From Candidatus Thiodubiliella endoseptemdiera (GTDB taxonomy: Bacteria > Pseudomonadota > Gammaproteobacteria > PS1 > Pseudothioglobaceae): a stretch of DNA of 64,000 nt. Every line of letters starts with the position of its first letter. The stretch's first letter is position 1. The stretch covers positions 310,001 to 374,000 of the forward strand of contig JACCHT010000002.1 in NCBI GenBank assembly GCA_013416635.1, written 5' to 3'. The position numbers and the translations under genes were made by a program. The notes beneath the pieces are model-generated. The model did no database searches, was not told the DNA's origin, and saw nothing but the letters and a program-made list of their open reading frames with translations. Of the stretch, positions 40,997 to 56,785 are shown in pieces.

Positions 40997-42383
40997 TTAT
41001 TTTTGGATTTCTCTGACTACAATCATTTTGTATTCCAATATATCACGCATAGAATAGCCAATACCTCCCGTGCCGTAGCCCGAGTGTTTTCTGCCACCAA
41101 ATGGCATCCAATCTACTCGGAATGTGGTGTAGTCGTTAATCATTACCGCAGAGGCTTCTAATCGTTTGGCAATATCTGTTGCTTTATTGATATCGTCGCT
41201 AAATACTGCCGATTGGAATGATACATTTAAACTATTGGCTTGTTCTATTGCCTCATCAATACTGTCATAGCCATAGATGCAGACCACGGGGGCGAAAATT
41301 TCTTGGGTTGAAACCTTGGCACTTTTTGGCGGGTTGAGCAATACTGTTGGTTCGTAAGCAACTTGGTTAATGCGTTTTCCGCCCGTCATCAATTGTGCAC
41401 CTGATGCGACTGCTTCATTGACCCATAATTCAATTCTATCGGTTTCTTTTGGGGATATTAGAGGTCCTAAATCGGAATCTTCGTTAATGGCATCGCCGAC
41501 AATTTGTTGGCTGGCAATTTTGGCAATTTTTTTTGCCAAATCTTCGGCTTTACTATTCGGTATATAAACGCGTTGCACGGAAACACAGACTTGCCCAGAA
41601 TGATACATACTGGCTTTAACCACACCGTTGATAAAACCCTGTTCATCTGCATATTCATCAAAAATTAAAGGAGCGACACCGCCGTGTTCCAAGGCACAAC
41701 GCACCCCTGGGGCAGAGTTTTGATTTTAGCAACCAGCCTACTTTAGCCGAGCCGATAAAACTGAAAAATCCTATCCTTTTATCGGTAACCAATTTCTCTG
41801 CATTTTCAGTATTGACCAAAGCCAATTGCACCCAACCTTTTGGCAATCCTGCTTGTTCTATTAACTCGGTAAGTCGTAGGGTGCAAAGTGGGGTTTTGCT
41901 GGCAGGCTTGATAATCACGGGGCAGCCTGTAGCAACGGCAGGAATGACCTGATGAATGGCTAAATTGAGCGGGTGATTAAAGGCACTGACTGCGACAACT
42001 ACGCCGATTGGTTCGAGTATCGTGTGTGCGGTATGCCCTGCCCCTGCTGGAGTGTAGTCCATTGGGATAGTTTCGCCTTTGATATTGCTAAGTTCAAGAA
42101 TGGCAATGTGGATACCACTAATGGCACGGGTAACTTCAATTCTAGCATCACGAATGGGTTTACCGCCTTCGTTGGCAATTAAGCGGGCAAAATCCTCCTG
42201 CTCATTTTTCACCAAATCTGCTAATTTTTGCAATATTTGGATGCGTTTTTGCTCTGGCAAGCACCCTGTTTTATGTAGTTGTTGTGCGGTTGATAGCATT
42301 TGTTCTACTTGCATACTATCGTGCATTTCTAATTTGGCTAATACTGCGCCTGTGTAAACTTGATTAACGGTTAATATTGCCAT
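40997..42383 (-). CDS. Aldehyde dehydrogenase family protein with a single-base frameshift
   Basis: NAD(P)-dependent aldehyde dehydrogenase of about 461 residues when the two open parts are joined (42383-41658 and 41704-40997). The N-terminal part carries the cofactor domain (PIGVVVAVSAFNHPLNLAIHQVIPA, then PVIIKPASKTP, and FFSFIGSAKVGW). The C-terminal part carries the catalytic cysteine in HSGQVCVSVQRVYIP and the PFGGRKHSGYG signature. The shift lies at about 41708-41716, where an extra T in CTCTGCCCC breaks KLAPGVRCALEHGG. Every catalytic feature is otherwise conserved, so sequencing error or very recent damage is likely. It starts 2 bp after the ThDP enzyme and is in one operon with it. 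The substrate is unknown; sequence style resembles lactaldehyde/phosphoglyceraldehyde-type enzymes. Confidence 0.8.
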
Positions 42384-42385
42384 AT

Positions 42386-44018
42386 TTATATCTCTTTTAG
42401 TTGATCAGGAAACAATTTTTCATTCTCATGATAATCAATAGGTGTGTCAATAATATGCACACCGCCCTGAGAAAAACAAGATTCAATCAATGACTTAAAT
42501 TCATCGGCACTTTGCACTTTATGTCCTTGTGCACCATAACTATGGGCATATTTAACAAAATCAGGGTTATTATAAGTCAAACCAAAATCCTCAAAACCAT
42601 TGCCTTCTTGCTTCCAACGAATCATACCGTAAGCACTGTCAGTAACAATTAATACGACCAAATTAAGTTTCAAACGCACTGCGGTTTCCATTTCTTGTGA
42701 ATTCATCATAAATCCGCCATCACCGCAAATTGCCATCACTTGTCGCTGGGGGTATAACAAGGCACAAGCCATTGCACTTGGCAGACCTGCACCCATGGTT
42801 GCCAAAGCATTATCCAGTAGCACTGTATTGGGCATATAAGTGTGATAATGGCGTGCAAACCAAATCTTATACATCCCATTATCGAGTGCAATGATTGCAT
42901 CTTCATTCAAGGCACGACGAACATCAGCAACGATTCTCTGTGGTAGCATAGGATATGCATCATCATTATCTTTCTCGTGGATTACTTTTTTGATGTCTGC
43001 TTTAAAGTTTAACAATTCTAATGAGCAGTTCGGTAACATGGAATCCAACGCTTGTGCCAAACGATCAACGGTGGTTTGAATGTCGCCAATAATTTCTAAT
43101 TGTGGGAAATAGACTTCGTCAACTTGTGCTGAATTAAAATTAATATGAATTACCTGAGTGCCACCTTTATGCATAAAAAATGGTGGTTTTTCCACCACAT
43201 CGTGACCAATATTGATAATCAAATCTGCCATTTTAACCGCTCTATGTAACACATCTCCGTCTGATAACGCCGCTGTGCCTAGGAATAAAGGATTTTTACA
43301 GCTAACTACGCCTTTGCCCATTTGGGTATTAAAAAATGGAATACAAGTTTTGTTAATGAAATCTTGCATGGGTCTAAATAACTTTTTTCGATTGGCACCA
43401 GCACCGATTAAAACCAATGGATTTTTAGCATTTTTAATCATTTCTACCGCAGTTTTTATGCTTTTTTTGTCCGCATCAGGACGACGCATTTCATGCACAG
43501 GAAATAAATGCCAATCCTTGATTTTTTCAGCCGCAACATCCTCAGGTAGTTCCAAATGCACAGCACCTGGTCTTTCCTCTTCCGCTAGACGAAACGCATC
43601 ACGCACCATTGACGGAATCATACCGCCATTTACAATTTGCTTACTGGATTTGGTCAGTGGCTCCATCATACGCACCAACATCAATAATTTGAAAACGCCC
43701 TTGTTTGCTAGAATGAATTGGCTTTTGTCCAGTAATCATTAACATTGGAAAAGCCCCAAGTTGGGCATACGCTGCACAAGTAACAAGATTAGTCGCGCCT
43801 GGTCCGAGTGTGGCAAGGCACACACCCGCCTTACCTGTCAAACGACCATAAGTTGCCGCCATAAATGCAGCCCCTTGTTCATGGCGGGTGAGGATAAATT
43901 GAATGGATGATGCTCTCAAAGAATCCAGTAAATCAAGGTTTTCTTCACCGGGTACGCCAAAAATATATTCAACGCCTTCGTTTTCAAGTGCTTTGACAAA
44001 TAAATTAGATGCTTTCAT
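42386..44018 (-). CDS. ThDP-dependent enzyme, acetolactate synthase large-subunit family, with a single-base frameshift
   Basis: About 543 residues when joined. The first part (44018-43641) has the Pyr domain with the catalytic glutamate in ILTRHEQGAAFMAATYGRLTG, and GPGATNLVT. The second (to 42386) has the FAD-domain-like middle and the PP domain with ALATMGAGLPSAMA and the ThDP motif ICGDGGFMMNSQEMETAVRLKLN. The shift is at about 43670, where GATGTTGGTGCG should read GATGTTGTGCG so that IIDV continues into VRMMEPLTKSSKQIV. No ilvN small subunit is adjacent, so this is more like the catabolic or orphan ilvB-like enzymes found next to an aldehyde dehydrogenase in proteobacteria. It is 1-2 bp from both neighbours, so one transcript with the gltB-like gene is likely. 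Confidence 0.8.
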
Positions 44019-44019
44019 A

Positions 44020-45537
44020 CTATTTCCCTAAATGTTGCATTGGATAAAGTTCACTCATTGGAATTGACCGACCATTGTTTTGCACAATACGCACATGATT
44101 GCGATTCAATTTTCTAGGTTCTGATACGCCACAAGAATGGGCAATAACTTCAACTGCATGATTCATATTGTGTACATAGTTGGCAACTTTGGTGGCTTTA
44201 CTTTTCGGGTCTAGTCCTTTTTGTAAGCGTTTATTGTGCGTAGTAATACCAGTTGGGCAGGTATTTTTATTGCATTTTAACGCTTGAATACAGCCAATTG
44301 AAAACATAAACCCTCTAGCAGAAGTGATAAAATCAGCGCCTGCACATAATGCCCAAGCTACTTCAGATGGGGTAATTAGTTTACCAGAGGTAATGACTTT
44401 AACACGCTCTTTGAGATTGTATTGAATAAGTTTATCAACCAATAAAGGTAGCGTTTCTTTAATGGGCAAACCGACATTGTCTAATAGTGGCATAGGTGCT
44501 GCCCCTGTGCCACCATCACCACTATCAAGCGTGATAAAGTCAGGTGCTGATGCTTCGCCTTGCTTGTTAATTTCCTGGAAAAAATCATCTAGCCAATCGG
44601 TCGCACCAACCACCGATTTAAACCCAGTAGGTTTACCAGTAACCTCGCGTACATGATTAATCATATTCAATAAATCTTTTACATTGCTAATTTCAATGTG
44701 TCGATTAGGTGATATGGAATCTCCACCAAGGCTAATACCACGAATTTGTGCAATCTCAGAAGTTACTTTAGCACCTGGCAAAATACCTCCTTTGCCAGGT
44801 TTTGCACCTTGACTCATTTTAATTTCAAACATTTTAACCTGCTCATATTTAGCAATCTCAATTAACTTTTCATCACTTAAATTACCTTGCTGATCACGCA
44901 CGCCATATTTTGCTGTGCCTATTTGAAAAACAATATCTGCACCGCCTTCCAAATGATAAGGCGACAAACCTCCTTCACCAGTGTTATACCAACAACCTGC
45001 CATTGCTGCACCATTTGAAAGTGCTAAAACTGCAGGTTTGGAAATGGCGCCAAAACTCATACCTGAAATATTAAAAAGTGATTTTGCAGTATAAGGTTTT
45101 TGACAAAAACCTTTGCCAATAGTAATCGGGCGAGTTTCAGATGCATCTTTATCTAAAGTTGGGAAAGGACAATTAGCAAAAATCGCAGTATTTACAGGGC
45201 TTAGGTTTTTAGTTGAGCCAAATGCAACGGTGGTGTCTGTATTATTAGCTGCTTTATGCACCCAATCACGCTCTGCACGATTAAATGGCATTTCCTCTCT
45301 ATCCATGGCAAAGAAATATTGACGAAAAAACTCACCCAAACTAGAAAAAATACTACGAAAATGTCCAACAACGGGATAATTGCGTAATACTGCGTTTTTT
45401 CTTTGGCTCATATCATAGATAAAAACAATAACAATGAGTAGAGCAAATAAACCAACTATAAAGACAAACAGTGTGGATAAAGCCTCCAAAATAGGCGTTG
45501 CTGTTTCAAGCATTTCTCTCATACCCTCCGCTTTCAT
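44020..45537 (-). CDS. FMN-binding glutamate-synthase-like protein, membrane anchored
   Basis: 505 residues. An N-terminal hydrophobic segment (about residues 18-42, LSTLFVFIVGLFALLIVIVF) is followed by a glutamate synthase central FMN domain: SFGAISKPAVLALSNGA, GEGGLSPYHLEGGADIVFQIGTAKYG, KMSQGAKPGKGGILPG, DSGDGGTGAAPMPLLDNVGL, and the Fe-S type cysteines CIQALKCNKNTCPTGITTH. It lacks the amidotransferase domain of true GltB, so it belongs to the stand-alone GltS-like family whose substrate is not settled. It overlaps the DoxX gene by 4 bp at its start and abuts the ThDP enzyme, indicating an operon. Confidence 0.85.
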   Translation of the reverse strand: MKAEGMREMLETATPILEALSTLFVFIVGLFALLIVIVFIYDMSQRKNAVLRNYPVVGHFRSIFSSLGEFFRQYFFAMDREEMPFNRAERDWVHKAANNTDTTVAFGSTKNLSPVNTAIFANCPFPTLDKDASETRPITIGKGFCQKPYTAKSLFNISGMSFGAISKPAVLALSNGAAMAGCWYNTGEGGLSPYHLEGGADIVFQIGTAKYGVRDQQGNLSDEKLIEIAKYEQVKMFEIKMSQGAKPGKGGILPGAKVTSEIAQIRGISLGGDSISPNRHIEISNVKDLLNMINHVREVTGKPTGFKSVVGATDWLDDFFQEINKQGEASAPDFITLDSGDGGTGAAPMPLLDNVGLPIKETLPLLVDKLIQYNLKERVKVITSGKLITPSEVAWALCAGADFITSARGFMFSIGCIQALKCNKNTCPTGITTHNKRLQKGLDPKSKATKVANYVHNMNHAVEVIAHSCGVSEPRKLNRNHVRIVQNNGRSIPMSELYPMQHLGK

Positions 45538-46003
45538 TTTTGATGGTGTTTGTTACAAATTAAAGCATCTATTGATATTCTGCCTTGCCCATAAATCACA
45601 ATAACTAAGAGCATTATGCCCCAAAGTTTATGGTCATAATAGCCTCCTTCCCATAAAACAGGATACGATACGACGGCAATGATGTTAAACAAAAATAATG
45701 CCAATGCCGATAAACGCGTTGCCAGTCCAAGCACCAAAAGCACAGGCAAAACGAGTTCCGCTGCTGTGGCTAAATAGGCTGCTAATTCCCAAGGAATCAG
45801 GGGGACGCTGTATTCGCTTTTAAATAAATATCGCGCACCTGAGGATAAGAAAGGCATCTGCGAATCCCAACTGCCGAGTTTTGTTAGCCCTGCACGAAAA
45901 AACGCATCTGCGACATAAAGAGCAAAAAAAGTTTAAAAATATCGTCGGTGTATTTATGTAATACTTCAAATATTTGATTGTATAAATTGGTTAATTTTCT
46001 CAT
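45534..46003 (-). CDS. DoxX family membrane protein, frameshift near its N-terminus
   Basis: About 156 residues with four hydrophobic segments after correcting one base. The ATG at 46001-46003 (MRKLTNLYNQIFEVLHKYTD) follows a good AAGGAG site. The frame fails in a T7 run at about 45929, where one more T restores FFALYVADAFFRAGLTKLGSWDSQ and joins the open frame MPFLSSGARYLFKSEYSVPLIP to the stop at 45534. DoxX proteins accompany MNIO (DUF692) and DUF2063 proteins in bufferin-type metal-response operons, and a DUF692 remnant lies immediately upstream here. Function is otherwise unknown. Confidence 0.75.
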
Positions 46004-46470
46004 TTTTTCTCCTTGAGACCTTTGCATAAATAGGGATGATTAGCAAAATGACAGATTTTATTAAATTGGAAATTTTTTAAATCCACTCCTAGCAGGGATA
46101 AGGGTGTTTTTAAAAAGTTTGTAATTTGATGAAAGATGGCGTTTTGATGATTATTCATATTTATGCAAAGGTCTCCATTAATACTTGACCAACTCAGGTG
46201 TTCTGAGATTAAATCAGGTTTAAACCGTTCAATAGTCTCTTTTAGATGTTGTAAATGCTGCAGGTTCAATTTGTCACTTGATCCAAGCGAAAGCCCCACA
46301 CCATGTAAACTAATTGGATAATGCTCGGCTATTTGCTCCAGTTGATAGGTAGCCAGATTGTCATAAAAAAAGTTTTCACTGTGTATTTCAAACCAGTCAA
46401 TATTCGGGCGATCATCTAACACTTGTTGCAAGTGCGGATGACGAAGTCCAATGCCGACACCTTTAATCAT
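46000..46470 (-). pseudogene. Truncated MNIO (DUF692) family protein
   Basis: The first 98 residues (46470-46176) are clearly DUF692: GVGIGLRHPHLQQVL, WFEIHSENFF, LHGVGLSLGSSDKLN and ISEHLSW, which contain metal-ligand candidates of the multinuclear iron oxidase family. Family members are about 270-300 residues. Here the frame enters MITE copy 3 and adds 50 element-derived residues plus KEKK before a stop that overlaps the DoxX start. The iron-site residues of the C-terminal two thirds are missing, so the enzyme should be dead. Intact relatives modify cysteines of small bufferin/methanobactin-like peptides. Confidence 0.85.
46015..46175 (-). mobile_element. MITE copy 3, at the junction of the truncated DUF692 gene and DoxX
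   Basis: 161 bp with both 18-bp ends GAGACCTTTGCATAAATA intact. The flanks differ (TCCTT on the left, CATTA on the right), so this copy has no target duplication. That is expected if it is the product of recombination between two copies that deleted the DNA between them. The DUF692 reading frame runs into the element and ends at 46000. Confidence 0.93.
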
Positions 46471-46994: not shown

Positions 46995-47483
46995 CTAATT
47001 TAGCGTTTTAAATTTATTTTTACCCAGCCAAAACTGGTCGGCTTTCACAATAAATCCAGGAATGTCTTTTTCCCAACGGCGTTTTGTTTCTTTGCTGTAA
47101 TTAAGATAAAGTTTGTCATCAACAATCGCCCAAAGTGTTGGGTCGCCATACACGCCTTCACCATCAATCCCCATACGCCAAGCACAATGTCCGCCATATT
47201 GCGGTGCATACTTTTCTGGATGGGCTTTAAATAGGGCTAAATTGCCTGCATCTTTAAAATGCCATTGTTTATTTTTATATTCCAATGCAAAATCGGCACT
47301 GCCTTCAACGCTGGTATTTTGTGTGAAATAATTAACCGCATCATAACCTTCAATAGCGTATTCATTGCCCTCACTCCCTGCACCAAACCATGCTTTTTTG
47401 GTATAGACAAAATCCAAGGAAAGCACATGCAATGCAAAAGTACTTAGCCCTATTAATGCGATTATTTTTAGTATTTTATTCAT
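46995..47483 (-). CDS. YHS domain-containing exported protein
   Basis: 162 residues, with an N-terminal hydrophobic signal segment (MNKILKIIALIGLSTFALHVLS). The body reads AIEGYDAVNYFTQ, EYKNKQWHFKDAGNLALFKAHPEKYAPQYGGHCAWRM, the pattern of the YHS family (metal-binding-like domain of unknown exact role, often near copper or redox genes). It faces the same way as the rhodanese gene with a 77-bp gap that contains the solo MITE end. Confidence 0.85.
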   Translation of the reverse strand: MNKILKIIALIGLSTFALHVLSLDFVYTKKAWFGAGSEGNEYAIEGYDAVNYFTQNTSVEGSADFALEYKNKQWHFKDAGNLALFKAHPEKYAPQYGGHCAWRMGIDGEGVYGDPTLWAIVDDKLYLNYSKETKRRWEKDIPGFIVKADQFWLGKNKFKTLN

Positions 47484-47529
47484 ATTTTCCCCTTTTTAAT
47501 TTTGGCTATTTTAACAGTATTAATACCAT

Positions 47530-47690
47530 GAGACCTTTGCATAAATAGGGATGATTAGCAAAATGACAGATTTTATTAAATTGGAAATTTTTTAAATCCA
47601 CTCCTAGCAGGGCTAAGGGTGTTTTTAAAAAGTTTGTAATTTGATGAAAGATGGCGTTTTGATGATTATTCATATTTTGTCAAAGGTCTC
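47530..47690 (-). mobile_element. MITE copy 4
   Basis: 161 bp, inverted ends, flanked by a perfect 5-bp target duplication ACCAT (47525-47529 and 47691-47695). The right end carries one change (TATTTTGTCAAAGGTCTC instead of TATTTATGCAAAGGTCTC). It lies between the YHS gene and the 3' end of the VTT gene. Confidence 0.95.
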
Positions 47691-47779: not shown

Positions 47780-48346
47780 TTAGTTAAGCACATAGCTTGT
47801 GGATTCAAAAATACCAGTGATAATTGAGATGTAGATAATTGAGGTGATTGAGGTGCCAGAAATAATACCAATGAGAATATTTTTAAGCTTAATGTCAATG
47901 ATTGAGAGAAAATAAACCAACACATTAATTGAGATACCAGGGATAAAACAGAGGGCAAAAATGATGGGGATTTCTGTGTTTTTAATTTTTTGTTCAAAAT
48001 CGAGTATTTTTTGTGGTACTTTAAAGTTTAATTTATGGGAAAAATTATAAATAATGAAGCAGTAGCTGATAATGGCGATTTGAATAGCGATGAACACTTG
48101 GAGGAAGGAAAAAATATAAATGCCTGCTAACAAAAATGCCGTTCCCGGTAACAAGGTCAAACCCCTGACAATCAAAATTAGAATATAAGCAATGTATGAA
48201 ACTAAAAAATATTGTGTGTTTAACAGTGTTTTTAGCATTTTGACATCAATCTCATAACCGCTAAAATAGAGATAAACTAGCCCCATAATATTAAGTGCAA
48301 TAAAGCCATAAAATAAATATTTTTTATTAATATTTTTCATTGTCAA
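47780..48346 (-). CDS. Membrane protein, VTT/DedA-like
   Basis: 188 residues with about five or six hydrophobic segments. The stretch IVRGLTLLPGTAFLLAGIYI resembles the R-x-x-PG-x-x-x-x-x-x-G core of the VTT (SNARE-associated/DedA) family, and FALCFIPGISINVLVYFLS resembles its second half. Such proteins are lipid scramblases or transport-related factors in bacteria. The start overlaps the end of the ATP-grasp gene (stop at 48327), so it is translated from the same message. The family call is moderate. Confidence 0.6.
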   Translation of the reverse strand: MTMKNINKKYLFYGFIALNIMGLVYLYFSGYEIDVKMLKTLLNTQYFLVSYIAYILILIVRGLTLLPGTAFLLAGIYIFSFLQVFIAIQIAIISYCFIIYNFSHKLNFKVPQKILDFEQKIKNTEIPIIFALCFIPGISINVLVYFLSIIDIKLKNILIGIISGTSITSIIYISIITGIFESTSYVLN

Positions 48347-49224
48347 GCACTTCTAATTGGTTTAATTGATGATAAAAATCGACTAAATCTTTGGGTTTTT
48401 CGCCATATCTAGGATTGTCGTGCATTTTTAAAAAAGGACGGGAATTGAGTTCTAGAAAAATGCACGCTTGCGCTTTAAAATCAACTTCAATGCCTTGTTT
48501 ACAAATGACATCAATGCCTAAAATATTGGCATCAAAAAAATGCAGTATTTTCTCTAAATCTTGTTGGTTGCTGTCCGTTAGTTTCTTTTATCAATCACTT
48601 CAACACTAGAACCTAATTTAAGTGAGATTTTATGGTGTAGATAAACTTTTTGGTTAGACTTAGGCACGGTGGAGAGGTGCATTTTTTGCTGTTTTAGATG
48701 CTTTTTAATGGCATTATTTTTAGGGATTGGACGGGTAATGGGGGCGAGTTGCTTTTGCTTTCTGAGTTGGTTTTCAATGTCAATTAAATGGTCGATTGTT
48801 TGCAATCCGTCGCCTATAACAAAGGGCGGGTAGCGTCGCAGGACTGACATAACACCGAATTTTGTCATTACCACACGGTAGTTTTTGCCTAGCAAATATT
48901 CTTCTATAATACTATTTGACCACCATTTTTTAACACCGATACTTGCTTTGGCTAATTGTGCTTTATTTTCAATGGGAAAATAGGCACCACGGGAAAACCC
49001 ACCTACATTGGGCTTAATAACTAAGGGAAAACCGTATTGTTGATAAAATTGAAATGCTGAATAGGGGTTAATGAAAGTTCTGCCTTTGGCGTAAGGGTAA
49101 TGCGTTTTCTGCAAATGCCAATCTGGCTTGTTTTTTCGAACGACAAGCACGACGCACTTCAAGCGAATTATAATCACTACAGCCTGATAAAAGAACGTGA
49201 TAAAAATTGATGCAATACTTTCAT
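48327..49224 (-). CDS. ATP-grasp ligase (cyanophycin-synthetase-like), with about three frameshifts
   Basis: About 299 codons from ATG 49224 (MKVLHQFLSRSF) to TAA 48327-48329. Joined frames give SGCSDYNSLEVRRACRSKKQ, then YAKGRTF and the main open part (49118-48590) with ATP-binding FPLVIKPNVGGFSRGA, EEYLLGKNYRVVM and VIGDGLQTIDHLIDIENQLR as in cyanophycin synthetase. The last part is ILGIDVICKQGIEVDF and LELNSRPFLKMHDNPRYGEK with the metal-binding E-x-N. Shifts lie near 49185, 49110 and 48590. The core residues are kept, so error or recent damage is possible. Such enzymes join a carboxylate to an amine through an acyl phosphate. The operon setting suggests an amino acid or sulfur amine as substrate. 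Confidence 0.7.
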
Positions 49225-49231
49225 TATTTCT

Positions 49232-49330
49232 TAACTTTGATTGATAATGTTTGATAATTTTCCTAGAAAAAACAAAGTGATTAAAGTGATTTTAGGGGTG
49301 GTAGCACTCACTTTAACTAAATGCTTCATA
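49232..49330 (-). CDS. Possible 32-residue peptide between the two ATP-grasp genes
   Basis: Reading ATATGA at 49326-49331, the stop of the upstream ATP-grasp gene overlaps an ATG that opens a frame of 32 codons (MKHLVKVSATTPKITLITLF then FLGKLSNIINQS), ending 7 bp before the next gene's ATG. The ATGA overlap is typical of translational coupling. The peptide has a short hydrophobic centre and no cysteine. It may be a real small gene, for instance a ligase substrate or leader, or simply spacer; no homologue is known to me. Confidence 0.3.
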
Positions 49331-50038
49331 TTGTCCTTAATAAATTTATATTTACTTTTTTGGAAACTCTATTATCTAACAAATGAATGGGAAATGGTGC
49401 GAATAAATTAACTTCAATAATATGGAAAATACCTGCAATAATGCTTCCTTAGAATCGCTCTAAGTCCCCACTCTGGCAATACGAAAAGGGGGTAATTCTT
49501 GTAAATAGGTTTGTAGAATATCCAATTCTTTATCACAAAAATCTGGGGTAATGTCTTGATACATTGTGTTCTTATTGTAAATGCTGTTACTGGATAACGC
49601 TCGCCTGAGTGGTTTAGTGATTGGGATATTGAGCGTGCTTAAACAGGCTTTATTATCTGAATCACGAATATAGAAAATTTCATATTCTTGTTTTTCATGT
49701 GCGGCATATTGCACAATATAAGGAATTTTTTCACTTTCTGGATTGAAATTTAAAAAATCTTGTTGATTGTCAATTTTGATAATGCCATTGGAATTTTGAC
49801 CCCATTCTGGTTTTAAAAAGACGGGAAACGCTTTTGGCAAGTTGTTTTTTAAGTTGTTTTTATCCAAATAATTTTGTTCAAGACGCCACTTTTTTGGAAT
49901 ACGGGCATCCATATCAATTTTAGAATAGAAACCCTTGTTCTTGTTATACCACTCGGCATTAATCTGAAAATAATACCAAGGAGGAATGCCCAAGCGAATC
50001 GACCAAAAAATATAATAAAAAATCAATCTAAATGTCAA
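49326..50038 (-). CDS. ATP-grasp domain protein with damaged 3' end
   Basis: About 237 codons. The open part (50038-49460, 192 residues) begins with a short hydrophobic stretch (LIFYYIFWSIRLGIPPWYYF) and carries FPVFLKPEWGQNSNGI (ATP-binding lysine and glycine loop), YIVQYAAHEKQEYEIFYIRD and the LSTLNIP strand. After RVGT the frame is lost; the shifted frame continues to FHIIEVNLFAPFPIHLLDN with the expected E-x-N metal site and ends at 49326. A TAA also interrupts that frame near 49450, so at least two lesions are needed. Its ATG overlaps the cysteine dioxygenase stop by 11 bp. Function: amide-bond ligase, substrate unknown; possibly a partner or paralogue of the next ATP-grasp. Confidence 0.65.
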
Positions 50039-50516
50039 AAATTTCTCCTTTCATTGGATTGTCTGAATAATAATGTAGGCTGATGCTTTTTTGCGTTGCA
50101 CTAATTTGATGAATATAATTATCCATTTTTCCTTTTATACCTTTGTTGTAACGAAACTCTCTATTATTAATTTCCCTAAATTTAAGTTCGGTTAATGCAT
50201 CTTTGTCAAAACTTTTACAACTCAAAGAGCCTTCAAGTATATAAATAAAAGACTGCTCGGGGTGCCCATGAATGCGCGTTATTGCACCTTTATCCCAACA
50301 CAACAAACCCAGCCAACAATCCTTATTATCACGGATAATATTTCTGGTGTAATTACCCTTGTCAAAATATAAGTTTTTAGACTCTATTTCTTGTGCCAAG
50401 ACTTTGATTTGTTCAACCGCCAAACCATGCTGTTCATTGGCCAGTAATTCACATAAGACTTTGAAATCAAACTCAGTGGTATGTCTGTAATCGTAATTTT
50501 TAATTTCTTTAAACAT
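50028..50516 (-). CDS. cdo: Cysteine dioxygenase family protein
   Basis: 162-residue cupin that should oxidise cysteine to cysteine sulfinic acid with Fe(II) and O2. Motif 1 reads WDKGAITRIHGHPEQSFIYI, with two iron histidines. Motif 2 reads DNYIHQISATQKSISLHYYS, with the third iron histidine. The Ser-x-His-x-Tyr triad that activates the substrate is present as SLHYY. YTRNIIRD upstream corresponds to the family's substrate-binding arginine segment. Bacterial members lack the Cys-Tyr crosslink cysteine, and Gly occupies that place here (LEGSL). Its start overlaps the decarboxylase stop by 8 bp and its end overlaps the ATP-grasp start, so these genes are translationally coupled. Confidence 0.88.
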   Translation of the reverse strand: MFKEIKNYDYRHTTEFDFKVLCELLANEQHGLAVEQIKVLAQEIESKNLYFDKGNYTRNIIRDNKDCWLGLLCWDKGAITRIHGHPEQSFIYILEGSLSCKSFDKDALTELKFREINNREFRYNKGIKGKMDNYIHQISATQKSISLHYYSDNPMKGEIFDI

Positions 50517-51891
50517 TGTATTTTATTGACTTTCCTGTTTCAATAATGCGATTGAATAATTCAACTAATGTCGCTTGATTGATATTAACATTACTGATTA
50601 ACAGTCGAAATACCAATTTTTCTTCTATATAGGCACAAGCGAGTAAAGCCTGCTGCTCTTGTAACAATCTATTGCGTAAATTTTGATTAAAAGTATTGGC
50701 GTCTTTTGCTTTAAAGCGAAAACACACATTAAACGAACTGCGTTTAACCACCATTTCTAATTCATTACTGGTATTGATAAAATCCTCGGCAAATTTTGAC
50801 AACTGGTAATAATTTTCAACCCTGTCCGCAAAACCTTGTTTGCCATAAAATTTCCAATCTAAAAACCACTTTAAACTGTCCACACGACGACCGCATTGTA
50901 GAGAATTAACACCCAAATCAACTTTATTATCTCGAAAAATATAGCTATTATCGCCATCTGCACAAGTGCAGGATAATAAATTCTGATGGTTCAATAATAA
51001 AAAATTACACATTAAATTACTGCCCAGCATTTTATGAAAATCCATTGTAAAAGAATCTAATTGTTCAATACCCTTTAAAAATTTAGCTTTTAAAATTGAA
51101 CTCATTACCGCTGCTCCGCCCCAAGCACCATCACCATGTAACCAAAAATGGTGTTTGTCTCTTAACTTAGTTAAGTGTTTAATATCATCATAAGCACCAC
51201 GCACCGTTGCCCCTAAAGTGGCACAAACAAAAAAGGCGGTGCCGCCCTTTTTTTGGACGGCTCGAATGGCATCATCCAGTGCGGAAATATCCATTCCCCC
51301 CTTGTCCGTTGTCTGAATTTTAATCAAATGTTGCGTGCCGATACCCAAAATATTGGCCGCTTTATCCAATGAATAATGTGCATCGCAACTCACAAAAGCA
51401 AACAAAGGTTTCTGATTGAACAGCCCTTGTTGTTTGGTGTTTTTTGCCACTTGATTGCGTGCCACCATCATTGCAATCATATTGGCATTGCTGGAACCCG
51501 TTGTCATCTGCCCTTCGCCCTGTTTAAAGCCGACACAATCAAGCATTTGCTCAAGCATATAAGCCTCCATCAAAGTGGCAACGGGTGCAGATTCAAAGGT
51601 GCAGGCAGAAGTGTTGCTCAGGGCAGTCACAATCTCGCCCACTATGGAAGGAGGATTGGCACCCGACCACATACGATTGGCAAAATTAGGGTGGCTGGTG
51701 TCAGGAGAATATTCTAAATATTGTGCTACCCAAGTGAACAATTGCTGCCAATCTTGCACACCTGATTGGTTTAAATCAAGTTGCTTGCTTAACGCCTCAA
51801 TTGACTGATAATTAACCAAAGAGTTACTAGACTTCAGTTTTGTTTGTTGTCGGGTTTGTGCTATTTTTTTAAGCAGATCACTTTCTTGCAT
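50509..51891 (-). CDS. Group II PLP decarboxylase, glutamate / cysteine-sulfinate decarboxylase type
   Basis: 460 residues. Conserved blocks are HPNFANRMWSGANPPSIVGE, ACTFESAPVATLMEAYMLEQM, GQMTTGSSNANMIAMMVARN, AHYSLDKAANILGIG, GATVRGAYDDI, WLHGDGAWGGAAVMS (the Asp and Ala that hold PLP) and SFTMDFHKMLGSNLMCNFLL with the Schiff-base lysine. SLQCGRRVDSLKWFLDW is the signature of the animal GAD/CSAD branch. With cysteine dioxygenase directly downstream and overlapping, the natural substrate is probably cysteine sulfinate, giving hypotaurine. Glutamate or aspartate cannot be excluded from sequence. It begins 12 bp after the DoxX-like gene. Confidence 0.85.
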   Translation of the reverse strand: MQESDLLKKIAQTRQQTKLKSSNSLVNYQSIEALSKQLDLNQSGVQDWQQLFTWVAQYLEYSPDTSHPNFANRMWSGANPPSIVGEIVTALSNTSACTFESAPVATLMEAYMLEQMLDCVGFKQGEGQMTTGSSNANMIAMMVARNQVAKNTKQQGLFNQKPLFAFVSCDAHYSLDKAANILGIGTQHLIKIQTTDKGGMDISALDDAIRAVQKKGGTAFFVCATLGATVRGAYDDIKHLTKLRDKHHFWLHGDGAWGGAAVMSSILKAKFLKGIEQLDSFTMDFHKMLGSNLMCNFLLLNHQNLLSCTCADGDNSYIFRDNKVDLGVNSLQCGRRVDSLKWFLDWKFYGKQGFADRVENYYQLSKFAEDFINTSNELEMVVKRSSFNVCFRFKAKDANTFNQNLRNRLLQEQQALLACAYIEEKLVFRLLISNVNINQATLVELFNRIIETGKSIKYNV

Positions 51892-51902
51892 AGTGCCGCT
51901 AT

Positions 51903-52364
51903 TTATGCTTTTTTATTTAACCAAACCAATACTAGACCTAATAACAAAATAGACAAGGCGGCATTGGCTAAACCAGCATCAGTTTGTATTTGTCCATCTT
52001 CACTCCATTTGACTACCCATCCTAAGGGGGTGAATAAATGGAAAAAGACAGCACCTGCCATTACCGATGATGCCATTAAACCGCCAATACAGTGTAATTT
52101 TTCTCTTTTTTGCCGCCATATGATAGGCGACAATAAAACCAAAGCGGTCAATAACTCAAAACCACCAACGATATAAGCACCATATTGAACAAACAACCCG
52201 CCAATTGTTTCACCTAAAAAGCCACTCATCCATGCACCCAAAGTGGTGAAAATATGCAAAGGCTCTGCTGCCCCACTGAATTTATATGGCAATGAACTTA
52301 GGAAAATATACGCCGCCCATAAGGCAATCAACCAACTCACACTAACTTTAACAATATTATTCAT
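51903..52364 (-). CDS. DoxX-like four-helix membrane protein
   Basis: 153 residues, four hydrophobic helices (about residues 8-26, 58-78, 90-110 and 130-148). IFLSSLPYKFSGAAEPLHIF and YIVGGFELLTALVLL are typical of DoxX-like proteins. It is separated from the decarboxylase by only 12 bp and preceded by an AAGGAG site, so it belongs to the same operon. Its role there is unknown. Confidence 0.7.
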   Translation of the reverse strand: MNNIVKVSVSWLIALWAAYIFLSSLPYKFSGAAEPLHIFTTLGAWMSGFLGETIGGLFVQYGAYIVGGFELLTALVLLSPIIWRQKREKLHCIGGLMASSVMAGAVFFHLFTPLGWVVKWSEDGQIQTDAGLANAALSILLLGLVLVWLNKKA

Positions 52365-52389: not shown

Positions 52390-53451
52390 TTATAGGCGAT
52401 TTAATACTTTACCAGAATTGAGAGCTTCTCTGGCCATTTGTGCCGCCTCTTCAAGAGATTTTACCTGCTTAGTGTGCCATAAAACCAAACTGGCTGACAA
52501 AACCAAACCATCATAAAATAAACCTTTCTCTCCTGAAAGTGCTGCTTTCCCGAGTGAAACGGTATATTCAGCCAATGCCTCAATGTCATTTTCAACCGTT
52601 AATCCTTCGGGGAAAGCAATTGCACGGACATCTTGCTCAATACCGAGTGATTTAGGTTCAATATCCACACGATTTTTTTCCTCAACACCTTGATACGATA
52701 CCATTAGACCTTTTTGACGCAAAGATGGAATTACCCCCCCTTCAACGCCACGCACCAACAATGCCGTATCCATACCCGATGCGTTAACCAAATGTGCATA
52801 AATTGGCGGATACGGTTTATGCACATAGCCCAAAATTGCGTGTGTGGTTTTGCCTCTCAACGGAGCAATTAATGTTTCTACGGTATTAATCACGGTGCGT
52901 TTAATAATGCGATCACGCAATGACACCAAATCGTGTAACCCACTGCAATAACTGGCTTGGTCAATATAACTCCAGCCAATTGCATCGTTTTCTAATCGTG
53001 CTTTCGCCTCTGCGGTTGAGTGATCAACGCTTAACCCTAGCGCTTGATTGATATGGCGATGTGTCAATCCAAATTTTGGTGAAACGCTGTCCAATCCGTG
53101 AATGACCGTCGGCAAACCGAGTTCTGCCAAAACAGGGGGCAGGAACGATGACACGGGAATTGAGCGATTATAACCACTGTATGGGTCACCCAAATCTACC
53201 AAGTTTTCAACTGCCACCGCTTGCTTGTCGCTCTCTAACAGAATAGCAGCTAAAATACCTTCATTTTCGTCCATACTCTCGCGTTTCATTCGCAAAGCAA
53301 TTAAGAAAATTGCCGATTGCACATCATCAATCTCGCCACGCAAAATAGCTTGCATACCATCTCTAGCTTCTTCAAAAGCGATATCCTTACTTAGATCTGG
53401 ACCTGTGGCAATGCGTTGAATAATGGATTTTAATAATGCTTGTGAATTCAT
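52390..53451 (-). CDS. Anthranilate phosphoribosyltransferase-like protein (TrpD2/YbiB family)
   Basis: 353 residues. It has the small helical N-domain with AFEEARDGMQAILRGEIDDVQSAIFLIALRMK and the nucleoside phosphorylase-like alpha/beta body of the TrpD family (VIHGLDSVSPKFGLTHRHIN, TLIAPLRGKTTHAILGYVHKPYPPIYA, ALLVRGVEGGVIPSLRQKG). The phosphate loop GTGGD of true TrpD is replaced by GDPYSGYNRS, so it is not the tryptophan enzyme. Family members of this type have been described as nucleic-acid binding; the role is unclear. The start overlaps the Rieske stop by 4 bp (ATGA), so the two are co-translated. Confidence 0.75.
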   Translation of the reverse strand: MNSQALLKSIIQRIATGPDLSKDIAFEEARDGMQAILRGEIDDVQSAIFLIALRMKRESMDENEGILAAILLESDKQAVAVENLVDLGDPYSGYNRSIPVSSFLPPVLAELGLPTVIHGLDSVSPKFGLTHRHINQALGLSVDHSTAEAKARLENDAIGWSYIDQASYCSGLHDLVSLRDRIIKRTVINTVETLIAPLRGKTTHAILGYVHKPYPPIYAHLVNASGMDTALLVRGVEGGVIPSLRQKGLMVSYQGVEEKNRVDIEPKSLGIEQDVRAIAFPEGLTVENDIEALAEYTVSLGKAALSGEKGLFYDGLVLSASLVLWHTKQVKSLEEAAQMAREALNSGKVLNRL

Positions 53452-53759
53452 AATTGTATATATATTTGGTGATTTTTTTGTTTGACAGCGTAGGTTTGCA
53501 TATTGTCTACATCGGCTTCTGAACTGTCGCCTGTGGCTAAATCAAAACTGTAACCGTGCAATGAACATTTAACGCGATTGCCTTTTAAACAACCTAATGT
53601 CAACTCAATGTCTTCGTGTGGGCAACGATTTTCTGCTGCATATAACACGCCGTTGTTTGTCGTTACAAATATTTTCTTACCTTCGATAGTGGCTTCAACC
53701 ATCGTGCCTTCTTTGGGCGCGGCATCCAATACCTTAACCCACATTAAAAGTAACTCCAA
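53448..53759 (-). CDS. Rieske [2Fe-2S] ferredoxin
   Basis: 103 residues, or 97 if the second in-frame ATG at 53741 (MWVKVLDAAPKEG) is the start, which also avoids overlap with the transglycosylase. The cluster ligands are CPHEDIELTLGCLKG (C-x-H) and VKCSLHGYSFD (C-x-x-H). It resembles small ferredoxins of dioxygenase type rather than NirD. A dedicated partner is not visible; the TrpD2-like gene follows directly with overlapping codons. Confidence 0.85.
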   Translation of the reverse strand: MELLLMWVKVLDAAPKEGTMVEATIEGKKIFVTTNNGVLYAAENRCPHEDIELTLGCLKGNRVKCSLHGYSFDLATGDSSEADVDNMQTYAVKQKNHQIYIQL

Positions 53760-54512
53760 ACACTATTTTTATCCAATTGTGCGCTACATTGTTGTAATTG
53801 TCGCTGATAGCGTTTGGCGTTTCCTTCCACTTTTTTGGCAACGCTTATGAGCCAGTCTTTTTCCTTATAAGTTTTGCGATTAAAACCACCATGACCTTCG
53901 TGATAAGCCAAATATTGGTTATAAGCATCACGCTTACTAATTTTTGAGAGTTTCTTAGATTTGCTGATATACCAACCCACAAAATCAGCAGCATCGGCAA
54001 ATTTATCACGCATTGCGTCATAATTGCCTGTGTCCTTCTGATACCATTCCCAGGTTTCCATTTTGACCTGTGCAAAACCATACGCATTGCTTGGTCTGGT
54101 CCAAGGAATAATGCCAAATAAAGAATCTCTTGGTGGTCTTGCATCTGATTCAAAATGCGACTCTTGATAAATAATCGCAAGCTGCACATAAGCCGGTACG
54201 CCGTATTTTTTTTCTGATGTTTTGACTGCTTTATACCAACGAACTTCCTCGTCCATTAAAACACAAATATTATCAACCGTGATTGCGGGCGTGGAAAAAC
54301 AACCTGCTAAAAATAATGGCAAAAATAACAAGGTGAGACCTTTGCATAAATAGGGATGATTAGCAAAATGACAGATTTTATTAAATTGGAAATTTTTTAA
54401 ATCCACTCCTAGCAGGGCTAAGGGTGTTTTTAAAAAGTTTGTAATTTGATGAAAGATGGCGTTTTGATGATTATTCATATTTATGCAAAGGTCTCAAGGT
54501 TATTCTTTTCAT
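53744..54512 (-). CDS. Lytic transglycosylase (SLT domain) lipoprotein, signal peptide interrupted by a MITE
   Basis: Murein-cleaving enzyme. The SLT domain shows AIIYQESHFESDARPP with the catalytic Glu, NAYGFAQVKMETWEWY and YLAYHEGHGGF. The ancestral start is ATG 54510-54512: removing MITE copy 5 plus one 5-bp duplication gives MKRITLLFLPLFLAGC, a textbook lipobox ending in Cys. The insertion adds 166 bp, which shifts the frame, so the old start now ends after 13 codons. A new frame begins at the element's ATG (54478), reading 48 element residues in frame into TLLFLPLFLAGCF (244 codons). The protein could still be made but with a long extension before its lipobox. Lipid attachment is then doubtful, so the gene may be a pseudogene. 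Confidence 0.85.
54335..54495 (-). mobile_element. MITE copy 5, inside the transglycosylase signal peptide
   Basis: 161 bp with both 18-bp inverted ends intact and a perfect 5-bp target duplication AAGGT (54330-54334 and 54496-54500). The minus strand provides an ATG and an open frame that continues without stop into the host gene. Confidence 0.97.
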
Positions 54513-56693: not shown

Positions 56694-56785
56694 GAGACCT
56701 TTACATAGTTAAGAGTGGATCTAAAAAATTCCAATTTAATAAAATCTGGCATTTTGCTAATCATCCCTATTTATGCAAAGGTCTC
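56694..56785 (+). mobile_element. MITE copy 6, internally deleted
   Basis: 92 bp. Both ends are recognisable (left GAGACCTTTACATA, right TATTTATGCAAAGGTCTC) but about 70 bp of the left half, including the ATG region, are gone. Flanks ATGTT and TTAGT do not match. It lies 23 bp upstream of the pdxB ATG and displaces whatever promoter lay upstream; a TTGACA at 56675-56680 is now separated from any -10 box. Confidence 0.88.

Follow-up and report, generated by a model that had tools for sequence, protein, structure and literature searches.

A recurrent decarboxylase, dioxygenase and ATP-grasp gene cassette with broken ligase genes in Candidatus Thiodubiliella endoseptemdiera

Introduction

Does a run of genes in Candidatus Thiodubiliella endoseptemdiera specify a pathway that makes hypotaurine and then ligates it into a larger compound? 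The question is raised by a 64,000-nucleotide stretch of its genome (the window; contig JACCHT010000002.1, positions 310,001 to 374,000, numbered below from its first letter). There, a preliminary description had placed an operon at 47780-52364 encoding a decarboxylase (here DEC), a cysteine dioxygenase (CDO) and two ATP-grasp ligases (AG1 and AG2), and had connected it with the hypotaurine of animals living with sulfur-oxidizing symbionts. We find that the cassette recurs in distant bacteria and that both of its ATP-grasp genes are pseudogenes in this genome. We tentatively propose that the ancestral cassette encodes a small-molecule pathway in which CDO and DEC make hypotaurine, perhaps beta-alanine too, and AG1 and AG2 join the amine into an exported amide.

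The assembly that contains the window (2.37 Mb, 24 contigs, 87% complete) has the thiotrophic symbionts of Bathymodiolus and of vesicomyid clams and Ca. Thioglobus as its closest sequence relatives. All cassette genes lie on the minus strand, and the 8- and 11-bp overlaps noted earlier between neighboring genes are real.

CDO and the decarboxylase are intact

CDO (50028-50516, 162 residues) is an intact cupin matching PF05995 at 1e-8. Alignment with rat CDO superimposed the iron ligands H86/H88/H140, the triad S153-H155-Y157 and R60 on residues that are invariant or nearly so among 19 relatives. In the window protein, H83, H85, H136, S146 and H148 are invariant, and Y150 and R58 (the equivalent of rat R60) are nearly invariant. 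The three-histidine iron site and the Ser-His-Tyr triad of thiol dioxygenases are therefore complete, as previously described. An arginine of the Arg60 type, which binds the substrate carboxylate, is typical of enzymes using L-cysteine rather than 3-mercaptopropionate. From these residues, L-cysteine is the predicted substrate of CDO and cysteine sulfinate the predicted product.

DEC (50509-51891, 460 residues, intact) is a Pyridoxal_deC protein (PF00282 at 4.9e-72) with GADL1 (240.6 bits), CSAD (235) and GAD65/67 (about 205) as top PDB matches. Foldseek with the predicted structure retrieved GAD65 and CSAD at E about 1e-34. Conservation extends to the pyridoxal phosphate (PLP) lysine (K287, invariant, in DFHKM), to the motifs HYS and DGAWGG, and to the arginine of FRLLISN. 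Fold and PLP lysine thus place DEC among the group II acidic amino acid decarboxylases, confirming its assignment to the GAD/CSAD branch.

Its earlier naming as CSAD fared less well. A triplet of residues is reportedly tied to the substrate specificity of such decarboxylases (Agnello et al. 2013). In 69 of 74 alignment rows this triplet is W/S/C, unlike human CSAD (F/S/Y) and GADL1 (Y/S/Y), so a CSAD identity is not established by sequence; the AlphaFold model is poor precisely at the substrate loops (residues 74-79 and 92-101). DEC also falls short of the cut-off for the aspartate 1-decarboxylase PanP (TIGR03799, 122.9 versus 606 bits). The genomic partner expected of a CSAD, CDO, adjoins DEC here and in most cassettes bearing the ATP-grasp genes.

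The distribution of the beta-alanine genes for coenzyme A (CoA) bears on the same question. PanD was found in 26 of the 30 relatives searched, including the window genome, so DEC is not needed for CoA in Thioglobaceae and was ruled out as a PanD replacement there. Across the 40 DEC-bearing genomes PanD is missing from 30, among them nearly all Desulfobulbales with a lone DEC, yet almost all hold PanC. In those Desulfobulbales (for example L018, L024 and L032) DEC may supply the beta-alanine step that is otherwise missing. The simplest picture is of an acidic amino acid decarboxylase that can use aspartate and that is fed cysteine sulfinate in the CDO-bearing cassettes. The family also offers an apparent natural series for the evolution of specificity toward aspartate or cysteine sulfinate.

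The ATP-grasp genes are broken in the window

The nature of AG1 and AG2 is best judged from relatives in which they are intact. AG1 matched no Pfam family; an intact relative of 269 residues (L006:8857-9666) has a predicted ATP-grasp fold (predicted local distance difference test score 88) whose top Foldseek matches are D-Ala-D-Ala ligases (E 5.7e-7). The lysine K72 and the Mg-binding residues E206 and N208, as expected of ATP-grasp enzymes, are invariant among intact relatives; the window copy is broken. Intact AG2 (299 residues, L006:9663-10562) matches TIGR02068 at 127.7 bits; its match to PDB 7ta5, a structure named glutathione synthase, scores about 108 bits. AG1 belongs to an ATP-grasp family for which Pfam has no model, and all intact loci read past AG1 have AG2 paired with it.

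In the window, both genes are present in the order described earlier, but neither is whole. AG1 (about 49229-50038) is broken at codon 193, AG2 (about 48327-49228) is split into pieces, and the open reading frames (ORFs) at 49460-50038 and 48578-49177 that had been taken for the two ligases are fragments of them. Compared with L002, L003 and L012, AG1 carries about 5 indels, and AG2 about 3, whose length is not divisible by three. This amounts to 8 frame-breaking indels in 1,695 bp, versus none in 3,495 bp of DEC, CDO and the neighboring VTT and TrpD2 genes relative to the nearest relatives; DEC has two alignment gaps against the more distant L012 only, its frame being intact in both. No frame-breaking indels separate the relatives from one another. 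Were indels placed at random, the chance of all 8 falling in this third of the sequence would be about 1e-4. Such clustering argues for decay and not for general read error, and both ATP-grasp genes are pseudogenes in this genome.

AG1 is free of internal stops in 9 of 11 other genomes of the same genus; another relative (G012) has just a DEC and DoxX remnant, beside transposase-like ORFs. The amine-forming genes have thus been kept in the window organism, whereas its ligation step seems to be lost. With AG1 and AG2 broken, the conjugate cannot be made here in the way proposed, and amine production alone can still run.

The cassette recurs in distant bacteria

The preliminary description had suggested looking for the same gene order elsewhere, and it proved to extend across Thioglobaceae and far beyond. 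DEC-CDO-AG1-AG2-VTT is intact in Bathymodiolus and vesicomyid symbionts, including reduced vesicomyid genomes of about 1.0 Mb (L008, L009). DEC-(CDO)-AG1-AG2-MFS occurs in Desulfobulbales, SAR324 and the gammaproteobacterium Thiolapillus. The constant core of the cassette is AG1-AG2-MFS, and in Thioglobaceae the VTT gene fills the slot taken elsewhere by the MFS transporter gene.

We then considered co-occurrence. Among 369 Gammaproteobacteria sampled, true AG2 was found in 11 and DEC in 8. In all AG2 neighborhoods that were read, AG1 is adjacent, and an MFS gene usually comes next. AG2 and DEC coincide in 6 genomes against 0.24 expected (Fisher p 4e-9; this and the two following p values are uncorrected for kinship), and counting only unlinked pairs leaves 3 against 0.09 (p 3e-5). 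Three genomes (G105, G247 and G315) have AG1-AG2-MFS alone and a separate DEC-CDO pair elsewhere; the DEC of G105 (L132) bears the F/S/Y triplet of CSAD. In a member of the Gracilibacteria (G065), DoxX-AG1-AG2-MFS (locus L148:1-15001) and a DEC with a CDO-like match beside it are on different contigs. That genome is only 1.2 Mb, reads TGA as glycine and has a biosynthetic content unusual for one so reduced. Within the 40 DEC genomes, CDO accompanies 17 of 21 that have the ATP-grasp genes and 1 of 19 that lack them (p 1e-6). Binning errors in metagenome-assembled genomes are possible in these counts. Because the gene order is recurrent and CDO, DEC and the ATP-grasp genes co-occur even when unlinked, an amine that is made and then ligated is the best reading of the family. 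To this extent the original proposal remains reasonable for the family, but not for this genome, where the ligases are broken.

Flanking genes

The cassette is bounded by two membrane proteins, as had been described. The DoxX-like protein upstream (51903-52364, 153 residues, intact) has a DoxX_2 match below the Pfam cut-off, and a similar gene precedes AG1-AG2-MFS in L112 and L148. At the other end lies a VTT/TVP38-like protein (47780-48346, 188 residues, intact; VTT match just below the Pfam cut-off). Further upstream on the same strand, an intact TrpD2-like protein of the glycosyltransferase family (52390-53451) is linked to the cassette in Thioglobaceae only and is probably outside the pathway; a Rieske gene (53448-53759) lies upstream of it.

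Downstream on the minus strand, a protein with a YHS domain and a probable signal peptide (46995-47483; NF041384, 143 bits) recurs beside the cassette in SAR324 and Gammaproteobacteria. Its gene runs with the operon here and opposite to it in L002, L003, L010 and L013, and that flank has therefore probably been inverted. A protein resembling glutamate synthase, with a membrane segment at its N terminus (44020-45537), lies downstream of the cassette in Thioglobaceae and also beside AG1-AG2-MFS in Gracilibacteria (L148:4283-5944). At 46000-46470 and 45534-45857, again on the minus strand, is the remnant of a bufferin-type copper cluster for a ribosomally synthesized and post-translationally modified peptide, in which a truncated BufB/MNIO maturase (125.7 of 310 bits) adjoins an HvfX-like DoxX fragment; related pieces lie downstream of the cassette in L007 and L010. 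A near-palindromic repeat of about 165 bp, resembling a miniature inverted-repeat transposable element, is present at 46014-46175, 47529-47690 and 54334-54495 (98-99% identical), with a half copy at 56723-56785; one copy ends the BufB frame and another forms the start of the ORF at 53744-54478. At 41658-44018 (minus strand), a frameshift divides an acetolactate synthase gene and an aldehyde dehydrogenase gene is truncated, which reflects further decay or local errors.

Several other assignments were rejected. PADLOC gave no match to a defense system, and spread by plasmids was ruled out since AG2 was absent from the 72,556 plasmids searched. Taurine breakdown nearby was excluded: a match to PRK08322 above its cut-off identifies the thiamine pyrophosphate enzyme at 42386-44018 as acetolactate synthase, not sulfoacetaldehyde acetyltransferase. 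A mycosporine-type MysC/MysD pathway was considered, but the loci that were read showed none of its partner genes. Scans for promoters and terminators yielded site numbers no higher than in shuffles. A literature search of partial coverage returned nothing relevant on the combination of DEC, CDO, AG1 and AG2.

Discussion

From gene content, conservation, lesions and co-occurrence we infer the substrates, ligation and transport of the following pathway. CDO would oxidize L-cysteine to cysteine sulfinate, and DEC would convert this to hypotaurine and probably aspartate to beta-alanine as well. AG1 and AG2 would then form two ATP-driven amide bonds, yielding a small, peptide-like amide that incorporates the omega-amino acid and is moved by the MFS transporter outside Thioglobaceae and possibly by the VTT protein within them. 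In the window organism, the amine-forming half alone would remain. AG1-AG2 is usually found beside a transporter, from Gracilibacteria to clam symbionts, and is kept in symbionts reduced to about 1 Mb. Clam and mussel symbionts, SAR324, sulfate reducers and Gracilibacteria could plausibly share a family of exported small molecules that is widespread yet undescribed, hypotaurine, taurine or beta-alanine receiving two amide bonds from a dedicated ATP-grasp pair. If true, a two-ligase pathway from hypotaurine would make a new class of natural product and also constitute a sink for reduced sulfur not known before.

Several observations weigh against this proposal: the W/S/C triplet of DEC; the lone-DEC genomes with PanC and without PanD, which suggest aspartate decarboxylation there; four loci (L013, L019, L035 and L063) with DEC-AG1-AG2 and no neighboring CDO; and the broken ligase genes of this genome. 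Moreover, no DEC or CDO was found in 5 of the 11 AG2-bearing Gammaproteobacteria (G325, G214, G410, G417 and G352), so that the amine can come from elsewhere or the ligases use another substrate. The context of the ATP-grasp genes, on which the preliminary description had staked its proposal, therefore gives a mixed answer. Its link to host hypotaurine is weak: to judge from the title of a paper by Rosenberg et al. (listed in the references of PMC4655397), vent gastropods without thiotrophic symbionts hold much hypotaurine too, which leaves a connection between operon and host unsupported as far as that title goes.

Part of this evidence would be accommodated if DEC were a PanP-like aspartate 1-decarboxylase, the amine beta-alanine and the AG1/AG2 product a beta-alanyl peptide, CDO being accessory or acting on a product thiol. 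Animal carnosine synthase, an ATP-grasp enzyme, makes such a peptide. We consider this alternative rather unlikely, though the lack of PanD in most PanC-bearing DEC genomes, the four cassettes without adjacent CDO and the closeness of DEC to GADL1 favor it, as do G325 and G214, which have AG1-AG2 and PanD without DEC. It fits poorly with the retention of PanD alongside DEC in Thioglobaceae, with the enrichment of CDO with the ATP-grasp genes and not with DEC alone, and with the unlinked CDO-DEC pairs that accompany AG1-AG2 in four genomes; outside Thioglobaceae, PanD also tends to be commoner with CDO (3/10 versus 1/21, p 0.09). Less probable again is that the locus joins two separate functions, with CDO-DEC making hypotaurine or taurine as an osmolyte or sulfur sink and AG1-AG2-MFS making or modifying something unrelated. 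The five Gammaproteobacteria with AG1-AG2 but no DEC or CDO found and the decay of AG1-AG2 beside intact DEC and CDO would be expected on such a division, but repeated linkage in distant bacteria, overlapping frames and the joint presence of the unlinked genes in four genomes are hard to explain by it. A different objection, independent of these and confined to the window copy, is that the lesions are assembly errors and the cassette is intact. The incompleteness of the assembly, its 24 contigs and the likewise frameshifted acetolactate synthase gene leave some room for this, but the restriction of all 8 indels to AG1 and AG2 makes it improbable.

Comparison with known systems

The proposed hypotaurine-ligating pathway resembles known systems only in parts. 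DEC shares fold and catalytic residues with GADL1 and PanP, and GADL1, which uses both aspartate and cysteine sulfinate, is its closest solved sequence; DEC differs in reaching no family cut-off, in its substrate triplet and in its operon context. AG1 has its predicted ATP-grasp fold in common with D-Ala-D-Ala ligase, from which it differs in its low identity (~15%) and in having neither a Pfam family nor a full N-terminal substrate domain. AG2 matches cyanophycin synthetase, CphA2, GshF and N-acetylglutaminylglutamine synthetase over their ATP-grasp part, but it is a stand-alone protein of ~300 residues with neither the N domain nor the Mur-ligase half of cyanophycin synthetases, and it scores well short of all family cut-offs (127.7 versus 850 bits for TIGR02068). 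The nearest pathway is the CDO-CSAD route to taurine reported from bacteria of the Synechococcus PCC 7335 type (Agnello et al. 2013), where CDO likewise stands beside a GAD-like decarboxylase and of which G105 is a plain example. The cassette departs from that route in the W/S/C triplet of the window DEC and in having, in addition, a pair of ATP-grasp proteins together with an MFS or VTT protein.

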